Below are positions 10,941 to 26,695 of a stretch of DNA of 64,000 bases, one piece after another (the stretch's first letter is position 1; every line of letters starts with the position of its first letter). The DNA is from Allobosea robiniae (GTDB lineage Bacteria; Pseudomonadota; Alphaproteobacteria; Rhizobiales; Beijerinckiaceae), in assembly GCF_900102525.1 (NCBI RefSeq), contig NZ_FNBZ01000004.1, positions 186,001-250,000 on the forward strand, in the 5' to 3' direction. A program made the translations under genes and the position numbers. The notes under the pieces were generated by a model, which saw only the letters and a list, made by a program, of their open reading frames with translations, had not been told where the DNA came from and made no database searches.

Positions 10941-11420
10941 TCAATGCCCCTTGTGCTCGCCCTCGCCGCCCTTTGCCGCAATCGAGTCGACCTTGAACTC
11001 GACATCGACGGTCCCGGCCTTCTCGAAGGTCAGCGTGCCCTTCATCATCTCGCCCTGCTTGAGCTGCTGCTTCAGGTCCATGAACATGATGTGGTAGCCG
11101 CCGGGCTTGAACTCGACCTTGGCGCCGGCCGGAACATCGACGCCATTGTCCAGTGGCCGCATCGTCATGATGCCGTCCTTGACCGCCATCTCATGGACTT
11201 CCGCGCGCGTCGCGAAGGGAACGGACACCGAGACCAGCCGGTCCGCGACCGTGCCCGTGTTCTCGATCGAAAGATAGCCGCCGCCGACCTTGGCGCCAGC
11301 CGGCGTGGCGCGCGACCAGGGATGGCCGATCTTGAGCGGACCCGCCTTGAATTCATGGGCGGTGGCGAAGCCGGCCGAGAGCAGGAGAGCCGCGGCGGCG
11401 AGTGAATAGGAAAGCTTCAT
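10941..11420 (-). CDS. Periplasmic copper chaperone PCu(A)C family
   Basis: The product has 159 residues with a signal peptide (MKLSYSLAAAALLLSAGFATAHE). The copper-binding pattern H-x10-M ... H-x-M is visible: H76, M87, H110 and M112. The C-terminus is His-rich (GEGEHKGH). Members carry Cu(I) in the periplasm, for example to the CuA site of cytochrome oxidase. It follows a DUF2946-like gene on the same strand, a common pairing. The ATG at 11420 was chosen because the signal peptide begins there. Confidence 0.93.
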   Translation of the reverse strand: MKLSYSLAAAALLLSAGFATAHEFKAGPLKIGHPWSRATPAGAKVGGGYLSIENTGTVADRLVSVSVPFATRAEVHEMAVKDGIMTMRPLDNGVDVPAGAKVEFKPGGYHIMFMDLKQQLKQGEMMKGTLTFEKAGTVDVEFKVDSIAAKGGEGEHKGH

Positions 11421-11530: not shown

Positions 11531-11908
11531 TCAGCCCAGCGGCGGCGCGCGCGATTGCGCGAGCCCGGCCGCGAAACGATGCGGCAAACCCTCGGCCCAT
11601 AGCTCGACCGCAACGAGCCGCGTGGCGAGGCGTCCCGGTACGGGCGCAGCCTCGACTGGCGGGCCAGCGAGAACGGGATTGAGCGGGCAACCCTTGCAAT
11701 GGGCGAGATCGCCGAGAGGAACCGGCTGGCCTTCATTGGGAACCGGAGCGCCCGAGCAGAGCACGACGCCGTCCGAACCACCGAACGCCGCCATGGCAGG
11801 AGCCGGCGCGAGCGCCAGGGCCATGACGCAGAGCGCATAGGCCATCGCCAGCCAGGCCCCGAGCCCGGAGCGGCGAAGACGATCGAGAAGGGCGGCGCGA
11901 GCCTGCAT
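11531..11908 (-). CDS. DUF2946-like small exported or membrane protein
   Basis: The product has 125 residues. It has one N-terminal hydrophobic segment (about residues 15-40, ending APAMAA), followed by a short region with three cysteines (VLCSGAPVP and AHCKGCPLNP), the pattern typical of DUF2946 proteins found beside copper genes. A role in copper handling with the PCu(A)C gene 110 bases downstream is inferred. The start is uncertain: ATG 11908 lacks a good ribosome site, and the frame continues upstream to about 12055. Confidence 0.6.
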   Translation of the reverse strand: MQARAALLDRLRRSGLGAWLAMAYALCVMALALAPAPAMAAFGGSDGVVLCSGAPVPNEGQPVPLGDLAHCKGCPLNPVLAGPPVEAAPVPGRLATRLVAVELWAEGLPHRFAAGLAQSRAPPLG

Positions 11909-12032
11909 GGCCGCAAATGGCGCCGCTTCCCCGGCTTCGTCAAGCCGCGCATTGCCGCATCCGTCATCGAAGCAGCGAGTCTGCGGAGAAAATTCTTCTC
12001 CACGCCCCAGTTTCTTTAAAAGAACGATCCGG

Positions 12033-12061
12033 TTGACAAAGAGGACGCTCTCCATCAGATT
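12033..12061 (+). promoter_or_regulatory. Candidate promoter of the SAM-II/metNIQ operon
   Basis: A perfect TTGACA (12033-12038) is followed after 17 nt by CAGATT (12056-12061), a weak -10. Transcription would start near 12068, about 20 nt before the riboswitch. Confidence 0.5.
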
Positions 12062-12085
12062 GCAGATCGTTCCTTGAGCAATCGG

Positions 12086-12140
12086 GGAGCCGCGGAGATT
12101 TGAGCAGCAGCTTGCGCCGCGTCACCAAACGCTAAAGCGC
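12086..12140 (+). promoter_or_regulatory. SAM-II riboswitch upstream of the methionine-import operon
   Basis: The segment fits the SAM-II (metA motif) layout: P1 arms CGCGG (12091-12095) and CCGCG (12117-12121) pair perfectly; the joining loop carries GATTTG (12097-12102); CTTGCG (12111-12116) sits directly before the 3' P1 arm, where the consensus has UUGCA; and GCTAAA (12131-12136) follows after 9 nt, where SAM-II has the conserved GCUAAA pseudoknot strand. It precedes metNIQ, which fits S-adenosylmethionine control. The linker before GCTAAA is about 2 nt shorter than in the examples I remember. SAM-II usually controls by sequestering the ribosome site. Confidence 0.75.
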
Positions 12141-12156
12141 CACGACTGGGTCGTGG
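12140..12156 (+). promoter_or_regulatory. Hairpin directly after the SAM-II aptamer
   Basis: CCACGAC (12140-12146) and GTCGTGG (12150-12156) form a perfect 7-bp stem with a 3-nt loop. No T-run follows, so it is not a classical terminator; it could be part of the expression platform or an anti-sequestering structure. Confidence 0.5.
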
Positions 12157-12178
12157 GCTCCAGATCGAGGAGACTGAC

Positions 12179-12247
12179 ATGACCGTTGCGAAAACGAGCC
12201 GAAGCCAATCCCGCTTCCGCCGAATGTCCTGCCGCTGTCGACGCTGA
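12179..12247 (+). CDS. 22-residue Arg/Ser-rich leader ORF after the SAM-II riboswitch
   Basis: A short ORF starts with ATG at 12179, six bases after a strong ribosome site GAGGAG (12167-12172), and ends at TGA 12245-12247. The peptide would start MTVAKTSRSQSRF and end in RCRR; it is very basic. It is the first ORF with a good ribosome site after the riboswitch, so it is the natural target of translational control. Whether the peptide matters or only its translation does is unknown. It could also be a decoy with no function. Confidence 0.5.
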   Translation: MTVAKTSRSQSRFRRMSCRCRR

Positions 12248-12318
12248 GATCGCAAGGCCGAGAGGCCGTTCCCACCCGATCGTTTCGACGAACGCCGCCA
12301 GCGGCGAAAGGCAGTTCC

Positions 12319-12567
12319 ATGTCCCAGATTCATTCCCTTCCCAGCCGGGCGCGCCCGGCGCAGCAAGCCTATGTCATCGAGCTCGGCGAGGCCCAGATCG
12401 GGCTGGTGAGCCGCCGCGCCGACGAGCGCGATTTCACCTTCGTCTCGGCCTCCGCCGCCTTCCGGGCTCTGGACGGGCAGCGTTTCGCGACGCCTGGCGC
12501 TGCCGAGACCGCCGCCCGCCGGCTCTTCCGTTCGCAGCGACGCGCGCCGCTGCTGCTGGCTTCGTGA
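12319..12567 (+). CDS. Small hypothetical protein in the SAM-II/met operon
   Basis: The product has 82 residues with no signal peptide or membrane segment. It is moderately basic, with a central YVIELGEAQIGLVSRRAD stretch and RRLFRSQRRAP near the end. I do not recognise a family. GAAAGG lies upstream of the ATG. It sits between the riboswitch/leader and metN on the same strand; the next small gene begins 7 bases after its stop, so it is probably co-transcribed with metNIQ. Confidence 0.68.
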   Translation: MSQIHSLPSRARPAQQAYVIELGEAQIGLVSRRADERDFTFVSASAAFRALDGQRFATPGAAETAARRLFRSQRRAPLLLAS

Positions 12568-12574
12568 GGCGGCG

Positions 12575-12748
12575 ATGCAGCTTCTTGCCGCGCTCTGGAA
12601 CAGTATCGCGAACTGGTTCGCGCAAGCCGTCCCTGCCACCTTCGACCCGCTCGACGCCGCAGCCGCGGACGACCAGCGCCGCTCGGTCCATGACGTGACC
12701 ATCGAGCAGCTCGGTATCGCCCACTGGTCCTGCCACACGCATTTCTGA
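12575..12748 (+). CDS. Very small hypothetical protein directly before metN
   Basis: The product has 57 residues: an amphipathic N-terminus (MQLLAALWNSIANWFAQ), an acidic middle and the end HWSCHTHF. I recognise no family. The start has GAGGCGG at a suitable distance; the stop is 4 bases before the metN start, the spacing expected of translationally coupled genes. Coding is supported by this tight packing and by GC-rich third positions. Confidence 0.6.
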   Translation: MQLLAALWNSIANWFAQAVPATFDPLDAAAADDQRRSVHDVTIEQLGIAHWSCHTHF

Positions 12749-12752
12749 GGAC

Positions 12753-13863
<1,111 letters not shown>

Positions 13864-13874
<11 letters not shown>

Positions 13875-14529
13875 AATCATCCGCCTGATCGCGCAATCGA
13901 CGCTGGATACGCTGGCCATGGTCGCGGTCGCGGCAGGCATCGGCACATTGTTCGGCCTGCCGCTCGGCGTCTTCCTCGCCACCAGCAAGCGCGGCGAGCT
14001 CTTCGCGGCGCCGGCCGCCAATCTCCTGCTGGGCACGCTGGTCAACGCCACGCGCTCGACGCCCTTCATCATTCTGGTCGTCGCGATCATCCCGTTCACC
14101 CGCCTGATCGCTGGCACCTCGATCGGCACGGCAGCGGCGATCGTACCGCTGACCGTCGCCTCCACGCCCTTCATCGCAAGGCTGATCGAAGGCGCGGTGC
14201 GCGAGGTCGACCAGGGGCTGGTCGAGGCCGCGCGCGCCATGGGCGCCACGCCCGTGCAGATCGTGCGGAAGGTGCTGGTGCCCGAAGCCCTGCCGGCGAT
14301 CGTGCTCGGCCTGACGCTGGCGCTCGTCAGCCTGATCGGCTTCTCGGCCATGGTCGGTGCGGTCGGCGGCGGCGGGCTCGGCGATCTCGGCATCCGCTAC
14401 GGCTACCAGCGCTTCATGCCCGACGTGATGGCGGCGGTCGTCGCCGTGCTCATCGTCCTCGTCCAGCTCGTCCAGAGCATCGGCGACCGGCTCGCCCGCC
14501 ATCTCAACAAGCGCCTGCGCCACGCCTGA
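13864..14529 (+). CDS. metI: Methionine ABC transporter permease
   Basis: The product has 221 residues with five or so membrane segments and the ABC-permease EAA loop (VEAARAMGATPVQIVRKVLVPEALP). Length and position between metN and metQ fit MetI. The start overlaps the end of metN, consistent with coupled translation. Confidence 0.96.
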
Positions 14530-14571: not shown

Positions 14572-15372
14572 ATGACGACCCTCCTCAACCGCCGCGCCGC
14601 GCTGCTCGCCGGCTTCGCTCTCACCCTCGCCGCCGTCCCGGCGCTTGCCCAGCAGAACCAGGTGGTCCGCATCGGCGTCTCGCCCGGCCCGCATGCCGAG
14701 ATTCTGGAGAAGGTGAAGCCCTTGCTCGCCAAGAAGGGCATCGACCTCAAGATCATCGAGTTCTCCGATTATGTCGTGCCGAACCAGGCGCTCGATGCCG
14801 GCGAGCTGGAGGCCAACTCCTTCCAGAACCAGCCTTATCTCGACAATCAGGTGAAGGATCGCGGCTTCAAGATCGAGAGCGTCGGCCTGACCGTGAACTT
14901 CCCGCTCGGCATCTACTCGGCCAAGTACAAGGACTGGTCGCAGGTGCCGGATGGCTCCACCGTCGCGATCCAGAACGACCCGACCAATGGCGGCCGCTCG
15001 CTGCTGCTGCTGCAGGACAAGGGCGTGATCAAGCTGAAGGACGGCGTCGGCTTCAAGCCGAGCCCGGCCGATATCGTCGGCAACCCGAAGAAGCTGAAGA
15101 TCATCGAGATCGAGGCCGCGCAGACCCCGCGCTCGCTGGCCGATGTCGCGGCTGCCGCGATCAACACCAACTATGCCGTCGATGCCAAGATCGACCCGGC
15201 CTCGGCGATCCTGCGCGAGGACGCCAAGGGCCCCTATGTCAACCTGATCGCCGTGCGCAGCGCCGACAAGGACAAGCCCTGGGTCAAGACGCTGGTCGAA
15301 AGCTACCACACGCCCGAGATCAAGGCCTTCGTCGCCGAGCGCTTCAAGGGCGCCGTCCTCGCCGGCTGGTAA
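14572..15372 (+). CDS. metQ: Methionine ABC transporter substrate-binding protein
   Basis: The product has 266 residues of the NlpA/MetQ family: VVRIGVSPGPHAEILEKVKP at the start of the mature part, IEFSDYVVPNQALDAGELEANSFQ and NDPTNGGRSLLLLQ. The signal peptide ends ALAQQ and contains NRRAALL; there is no lipobox cysteine, so unlike E. coli MetQ it is probably soluble in the periplasm. Third gene of metNIQ, 42 bases after metI. Confidence 0.96.
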   Translation: MTTLLNRRAALLAGFALTLAAVPALAQQNQVVRIGVSPGPHAEILEKVKPLLAKKGIDLKIIEFSDYVVPNQALDAGELEANSFQNQPYLDNQVKDRGFKIESVGLTVNFPLGIYSAKYKDWSQVPDGSTVAIQNDPTNGGRSLLLLQDKGVIKLKDGVGFKPSPADIVGNPKKLKIIEIEAAQTPRSLADVAAAAINTNYAVDAKIDPASAILREDAKGPYVNLIAVRSADKDKPWVKTLVESYHTPEIKAFVAERFKGAVLAGW

Positions 15373-23893: not shown

Positions 23894-26690
<2,797 letters not shown>

Positions 26691-26695
26691 GGACG

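Follow-up and report, generated by a model that had tools for sequence, protein, structure and literature searches.

SAM riboswitches and cysteine leader peptides, the latter including the polycysteine attenuators of mycobacteria, are already known singly. The SAM-II class was introduced in a report whose available text does not mention leader peptides at SAM-II elements (PMC1273637). According to the accessible part of PMC9373788, the S. meliloti members of this class stand before two biosynthesis genes, metA and metZ, and translation of metA, whose start lies 74 nt further downstream, depends on a Shine-Dalgarno sequence (SD) inside the riboswitch. Cysteine leader peptides precede sulfur genes in Actinobacteria, as described in the available portion of PMC1262725. 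The main text of a study of the S. meliloti small proteome, as far as it was accessible, does not contain the word 'cysteine' (PMC10117765). In the literature, with subscription journals poorly covered, we found no description of a SAM riboswitch and a cysteine leader in series, of the SAM-II variant reported below, or of the protein family of ORF A.

The window, i.e. the whole stretch of DNA that was analysed (64,000 nucleotides of a contig of Allobosea robiniae), carries a putative arrangement of this kind upstream of metNIQ. The closest named loci are those of Bosea, the genus to which the genome of the window appears to belong and whose other genomes share these loci. Our main reading is that a SAM-II-variant RNA gates a cysteine-sensing leader peptide ahead of ORF A and importer genes; to this account as a whole we assign a probability of about 0.6, and to the gene and leader anatomy alone a much higher one. 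The features of the locus, numbered from the first letter of the window, are as follows.

12082..12155, plus strand: SAM-II-like aptamer (SAM_alpha variant), core at 12088..12141; RF00521 22.8 bits (gathering 36)
12140..12156, plus strand: hairpin CCACGAC..GTCGTGG directly 3' of the aptamer core, read from the sequence and present in 30 of 33 genus loci
12167..12172, plus strand: leader-peptide SD GAGGAG, 6 nt 5' of the leader ATG, read from the sequence
12179..12247, plus strand: 22-codon leader ORF MTVAKTSRSQSRFRRMSCRCRR* with Cys codons at its end; a Cys-ended short ORF in the genus loci
12293..12306, plus strand: hairpin CGCCG..CGGCG directly 5' of the ORF A SD, from RNAalifold on 35 Bosea sequences
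12307..12314, plus strand: ORF A SD region AAAGGCAG, whose GGCAG is predicted to pair with CTGCC of the leader in the minimum-energy fold
12319..12567, plus strand: ORF A, 82 aa, of a sulfur-poor small-protein family (ORF, profile, selection, structure model)
12575..12748, plus strand: ORF B, 57 aa, conserved end HWSCHTHF*, found in Bosea only
12753..13874, plus strand: metN (Pfam ABC_tran, NIL)
13864..14529, plus strand: metI (Pfam BPD_transp_1)
14572..15372, plus strand: metQ (Pfam Lipoprotein_9)

A first-pass annotation of this DNA had described two small proteins packed between a SAM-II leader and metN. Both are real: their coordinates and the gaps of 7 bases between ORF A and ORF B and of 4 bases between ORF B and metN were confirmed, and each ORF has homologues with a conserved frame that are under purifying selection, rather than the missing homologues or broken frames named beforehand as counter-evidence. 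That annotation had overlooked a third ORF, the 22-codon Cys-ended leader between the aptamer and ORF A. The divergent neighbours on the minus strand are a PCuAC copper chaperone gene (10941..11420; Pfam) and an ORF of 174 aa with a CKGC motif (11531..12055) for which Pfam gave no match at E<=1. The sole Rfam match of the window at gathering level is a TPP riboswitch at 26588..26692 on the minus strand (68.6 bits).

The earlier identification of a SAM-II leader holds in part. An element is present, but its RF00521 score lies under the gathering cut-off, as does its score of 17.6 bits with RF01726 (gathering 44), and the default Rfam scan is silent about it. Our own covariance model, referred to as R1, spans 55 positions and was built from 29 aligned elements, the one in the window among them; it gives the window element 78.2 bits and the next best match in the window 8.4 bits. 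In an Rfam scan of 20 loci bearing R1, no family, SAM-II included, reached gathering in any locus. A permissive scan of seven loci returned only sub-threshold SAM_alpha, BjrC68 and Scr6925, and membership of a catalogued class was rejected. For the 'sul1' motif, considered as a candidate for the identity of the RNA, the literature covered gave nothing usable.

Across the 29 rows, the P1 stem is paired in 100% of cells and is nearly invariant: a change of both partners is seen for one pair, in a single row. As the observed pairing is moreover reached by 74 of 500 shuffles, covariation support for it is thin. The presumed P2 pseudoknot pairs in 74.3% of cells; one of its pairs is standard in just 2 rows of the 29, another in 20. 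The blocks GAUUUG, GCUUGC and GCUAAA are conserved as in SAM-II, some rows reading GAUUUC or ACUUGC. The RNA may bind SAM or a related metabolite. A relative of SAM-II tuned to another sulfur metabolite, and hence no SAM sensor, would agree with the failure of all 20 loci to reach the Rfam cut-off, with a stretch between P1 and GCUAAA that differs from that of SAM-II and a mismatch (C.A) that most rows show in the presumed P2, and with the occurrence of the variant at sulfur-uptake operons as against the canonical-looking SAM-II elements found at metA and metX (L283 and L285, R1 42-43 bits, translations read by eye). The retention of all three blocks speaks against such retuning, which we regard as doubtful though not negligible.

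The association of this RNA with ORF A extends well beyond the genus. The ORF A profile matches in 123 of 397 genomes of the order. In a sample of 289 genomes from the class it matches in 24 at E<=1e-6, and 22 of the 24 belong to other orders. Screening the 397 order genomes with R1 gave 101 sites of at least 41 bits, 74 of which are followed on the same strand, at a distance of 55-461 nt, by an ORF A found independently with the protein profile; none of the next 15 sites (37.0-39.8 bits) has one. This survey consisted of the best 116 sites, all of at least 37 bits. The 74 sites come from 73 genomes, 12 families and 21 genera (labels copied by hand). By a hand count, 22 of them recur among the 29 rows from which R1 was built, so that the unbiased figure is 52 of 79. 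Counted from the side of the protein, 74 of 148 ORF A matches have an R1 RNA of at least 41 bits and the other 74 do not. Small ORFs resembling a divergent ORF A were read by eye at 5 of 27 RNA sites without a profile match (L260, L263, L264, L270, L272).

Two sets of ORF A loci were compared at the sequence level. The first comprises 80 loci of the order, i.e. the highest-scoring non-Bosea matches among the 148, minus two near-duplicates and one locus fetched earlier; R1 lies upstream of ORF A in 40 of these (38 at >=55 bits, two at 32 bits), and 21 of the 80 had served in building R1. The second, held-out set comprises 20 loci from other orders of the class, taken from 28 places with ORF A (three end at contig ends), and one plasmid locus of Terrarubrum flagellatum (Hyphomicrobiales). 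Here R1 scores at least 43 bits upstream on the same strand in 14 of 21 loci, or 13 of 20 with the plasmid locus set aside; the 20 include loci from the same genus and are therefore not all independent. The plasmid locus (L286, NZ_CP091853.1) has the RNA upstream of an ORF A annotated as hypothetical (WP_342364162.1), which heads an amino-acid ABC transporter near cysE, and by the criterion given below it has no Cys-rich leader. Three loci with distant ORF A homologues (L032, L033, L034) all carry an upstream element of SAM-II type together with a Cys-rich short ORF, and one of the three precedes a sulfonate operon (translations read by eye).

The leader ORF is the second constant element. Cys occurs within its last nine residues in 33 of 33 genus loci and in 39 of 39 sequences of a second set (38 Bosea loci plus the window), two sets drawn from largely the same species, for which reason their counts are not to be added; two distinct Bosea leaders have a single Cys there. 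Equivalents in relatives include MTGSVLRPVEPLVRSMMCCCRR*, MTDATLGQTRTLILRAGCCCRL* and MTLSDLPQPAPAKASPACCCRMPILR*. Among the 39 Bosea sequences, pN/pS is 0.34 over the last five codons, which form the Cys/Arg end, and 1.04 over the remainder. A drifting body with a constrained end is the mark of an attenuator leader, whose translation matters rather than its product, and the leader combines the short ORF, the regulatory codons near the end and the free body expected of a cysteine attenuator. At L016, L017 and L037 the GCTAAAGCGGAG of the aptamer joins the leader start directly, the hairpin being replaced by a direct junction of SD and ATG, so that the RNA would gate leader translation there directly.

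Outside Bosea, we counted as Cys-rich any leader within 350 nt upstream of ORF A with at least two Cys among its last eight residues. Such leaders occur at 30 of the 80 order-wide loci, compared with 5 of 80 on the antisense strand and 5.8 of 80 in mononucleotide shuffles. Of the 21 held-out loci 12 have one; on the antisense strand 1 of 21 does, and 200 mononucleotide shuffles averaged 1.6 and reached 6 at most. Within the held-out set the leaders accompany the RNA, being present in 11 of the 14 loci bearing R1 vs 1 of the other 7. Starting instead from the RNA, we took 63 sites, made up of 38 of the 40 R1-bearing order loci (L161 and L172, at 32 bits, set aside) and 25 of the 27 sites without an ORF A match (L283 and L285 set aside for their canonical SAM-II at metA and metX). 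The short ORF with the best SD has Cys in its last nine residues at 52 of these sites and in its last five at 43; for the latter measure, 50 dinucleotide shuffles averaged 7.5 sites and reached 13 at most. Before tauA-like genes the leaders can be as short as six residues (MTTRLC*, MTPRLC*, MTNRLC*, MTRLRC*).

These counts bear on the proposal that the leader ORF is incidental and that the SAM-II-like RNA alone controls ORF A at a distance. The available text of PMC9373788 lends it a precedent in the 74 nt that separate the start of S. meliloti metA from the required SD. The excess of Cys-ended ORFs over shuffled sequences at the 63 sites, that over the antisense strand in the held-out loci and the confinement of selection to the last codons of the leader all argue in the opposite direction, and we consider an incidental leader improbable.

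The two elements can also be found apart. Four loci of family f36 (L129, L135, L137, L138) combine ORF A with a Cys-run leader ending in ..AATGACCCC*, and no SAM-II-like element was found at any of the four, so that the leader can exist without the RNA; two of them precede an apparent sulfonate binding protein gene. In the genome of the window itself, the RNA variant occurs twice with a Cys-free best short ORF, at L268 (G000:C7 near 67498), preceding an OsmC-like protein and a binding protein, and at L273 (G000:C18 near 114131), preceding a LacI-type regulator (translations read by eye). The best RF00521 match of the genome (L041, G000:C19:3646-3723, minus strand; 33.3 bits, under the cut-off) precedes a binding protein resembling the taurine/sulfonate type, and no leader ORF was seen there.

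At the 63 RNA sites the downstream gene was defined by script as the next long ORF, which lies on the same strand in 47. NCBIfam and Pfam assign 10 of these 47 genes to taurine/aliphatic sulfonate binding proteins, 8 to MetN with NIL, 2 to MetQ-type lipoproteins, 2 to Cys/Met PLP enzymes and 6 to SBP_bac_11, the last probably sulfate-binding to judge from their sequences; the counts are per family, and the groups are presumed not to overlap. About 19 of the 47 have no evident role in sulfur metabolism (5 GGDEF/EAL proteins, 3 of Na/H-exchanger type, a chaperonin and others). Most of the identified genes serve the uptake or assimilation of methionine, sulfonate, taurine or sulfate. In one genus (L174, L175, L176, L181, L191) the gene behind the element and ORF A encodes a protein of about 766 aa, and these proteins are taken to be the five with GGDEF and EAL domains. 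In 12 of 38 RNA-bearing ORF A loci (one of which, L118, is near a contig end), or in 11 of 38 by another ORF chooser, the next gene lies on the opposite strand, so that ORF A alone can be the target.

The first-pass annotation had proposed a role for both small proteins in methionine or sulfur handling, for example as accessory factors of the transporter. The general part of this proposal is likely to be right, given the SAM-II-like RNA upstream of both ORFs. The specific part is not supported for ORF A, since the same RNA and ORF A also precede sulfonate, sulfate and other genes and since its neighbour so often lies on the opposite strand, which unties it from metNIQ. For ORF B, a link with the transporter agrees with its occurrence, as far as seen, in Bosea only and before metN, but ORF B is dispensable.

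ORF A is present in 33 of 37 genus genomes, the four misses being assemblies listed as 92-96% complete, and its core has a pN/pS of 0.33 (39 sequences: 38 Bosea loci and the window). As the earlier annotation had supposed, it belongs to no named family: the window protein has no NCBIfam or Pfam match, and 23 relatives gave no credible Pfam match, the best E-values being 0.036 (AAA_lid_2, two members), 0.05 and 0.059 (DUF3126, one member). The family is poor in sulfur. All 39 Bosea proteins are free of Cys and 37 of 39 lack internal Met; in the 80 order loci Cys makes up 0.18% and Met 0.58% of residues, 70 proteins being Cys-free and 52 free of internal Met (10 contain Cys and 28 contain internal Met). 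The corresponding values are 0.79% and 1.93% for a baseline of 35 long ORFs of the window, selected by GC3, which may include wrong frames. This composition fits a protein made under sulfur shortage.

The AlphaFold model of ORF A, with a core pLDDT near 90, places strands at 16-22, 25-32 and 39-43 and helices at 46-51 and 59-78, predicting a beta-beta-beta-alpha-alpha domain of about 55 residues that is nearly free of Cys and Met. Against the PDB there was no Foldseek match below E 0.89 and no sequence match at E<=1. The best weak structural neighbour was YkuJ of B. subtilis (PDB 2ffg; VIA Z 4.3; 58 residues, rmsd 2.9, Foldseek E 0.89), a likeness that is not significant and concerns the fold only, no sequence kinship being seen. 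ORF A represents an unnamed family. In our main reading its product would be dedicated to sulfur starvation, most probably as a small adaptor or regulator that acts on sulfur assimilation from the cytosol rather than as the subunit of one transporter. That it acts as a trans-acting effector is a tentative suggestion, which we would sooner doubt than accept.

ORF B is an accessory gene of Bosea whose Cys/His tail is strongly conserved. At E<=0.001 it is present in 25 of 37 genus genomes and missing in 12; it is also missing in 11 of the 38 Bosea loci of the second set, and in the order it was found in 2 of 397 genomes, both of this genus. In 28 sequences, pN/pS is 0.23 over the last ten codons and 0.70 over columns 2-20, the end reads HWSCHTHF in 18 and the tail Cys is kept in 26. 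The window protein has no Pfam or NCBIfam match, and the 28 members gave a best Pfam E-value of 0.089, to an unrelated family, with no match to DUF1127. The latter had come up by eye and was rejected, hhalign giving a probability of 0.6% against a DUF1127 alignment made from relatives. The predicted structure consists of two helices at low confidence (pTM 0.29). Perhaps ORF B docks on MetNIQ.

Both ORFs could in principle be mere translational spacers handing ribosomes on from leader to metN, their products being unimportant. The tight spacing would suit such a role, as would the loss of ORF B with metN then placed directly after ORF A. The selection on the ORF A core and on the ORF B tail, the conservation of ORF A in other families and orders and the opposite-strand genes that follow it weigh against it, and we hold this to be highly unlikely. 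For ORF B, it might also be proposed that the conserved end is a nascent chain tuning metN translation. Its selection is concentrated near a stop codon 4 bases before metN, and traces of its last codons were read by eye before metN at L100 and L108, which lack ORF B; yet the Bosea species without ORF B keep metN. To our knowledge, no known stalling motif matches this end. We give the nascent-chain proposal little credence, and read ORFs A and B as the first protein genes of the proposed operon.

According to our main reading, two sensors in series would govern a sulfur-starvation operon. At high SAM (or a related metabolite) the aptamer would close and the leader SD would be blocked, whereas at low SAM ribosomes would translate the leader. 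Only with Cys-tRNA scarce would the ribosome stall on the last Cys codons and thereby free the otherwise sequestered start of ORF A, so that ORF A would be translated and, given the tight coupling, ORF B and metNIQ with it. Since the leader would be gated by SAM and the stall would occur on Cys codons, output would need both low SAM and low cysteine. What the data show directly is the gene anatomy, its conservation, the selection and the co-occurrence of the RNA, the leader, ORF A and sulfur genes; the ligand, the stalling, the switching and the targets and location of the two proteins are interpretation.

The energetic support that folding lends to this scheme is weak. With the ribosome absent, CTGCC at 12229..12233 is predicted to pair with GGCAG at 12310..12314 in the window and some near relatives only. 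When ribosomes were simulated by masking in 39 sequences, a stall at the Cys codons lowered the average cost of opening the ORF A SD from 10.34 to 9.29 kcal/mol, an effect of about 1 kcal/mol (p=0.004, by a statistic that ignores relatedness) that is absent or reversed in several loci; a ribosome at the leader stop codon gave nearly the same value, 9.59 kcal/mol. RNAalifold on the gap between leader and ORF A in 35 Bosea sequences kept the SD hairpin as its only helix, with no compensatory changes, and a proof of the attenuator by covariation therefore failed. In a broader form, the RNA would constitute an altered-ligand class derived from SAM-II, forming with the Cys leader an AND gate, and ORF A would be a trans-acting sulfur-starvation regulator in a wider sulfur-sparing response; taken together, we consider this version unlikely.

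If the main reading is correct, Alphaproteobacteria including Bosea would place sulfur uptake under the joint control of SAM and cysteine with no protein regulator, and the RNA, as the most constant partner of ORF A, would provide a direct handle on the function of this protein.

The variant RNA shares with the SAM-II riboswitch (RF00521 SAM_alpha, RF01726) the P1 stem and the GAUUUG, GCUUGC and GCUAAA blocks, and both lie just 5' of a Shine-Dalgarno sequence in Alphaproteobacteria. It differs in its sub-gathering score, in a shorter and different joint before GCUAAA, and in being followed by a leader peptide and mostly by sulfur-import genes. S. meliloti metA resembles the Bosea locus in that the SD of SAM-II acts upstream of the real start of a Rhizobiales met gene, and differs in that no Cys leader is mentioned in the available text of PMC9373788, where 'cysteine' occurs 0 times in the main text. 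Like the cysteine leaders of Actinobacteria described in the accessible part of PMC1262725, the Bosea leader is a short ORF, has its run of Cys codons close to the stop and stands before sulfur genes. Those leaders belong to another phylum and Rho-dependent termination was suggested for them, whereas the Bosea leader immediately follows a SAM-II-like RNA, and a hairpin adjoins the start of the gene after it.
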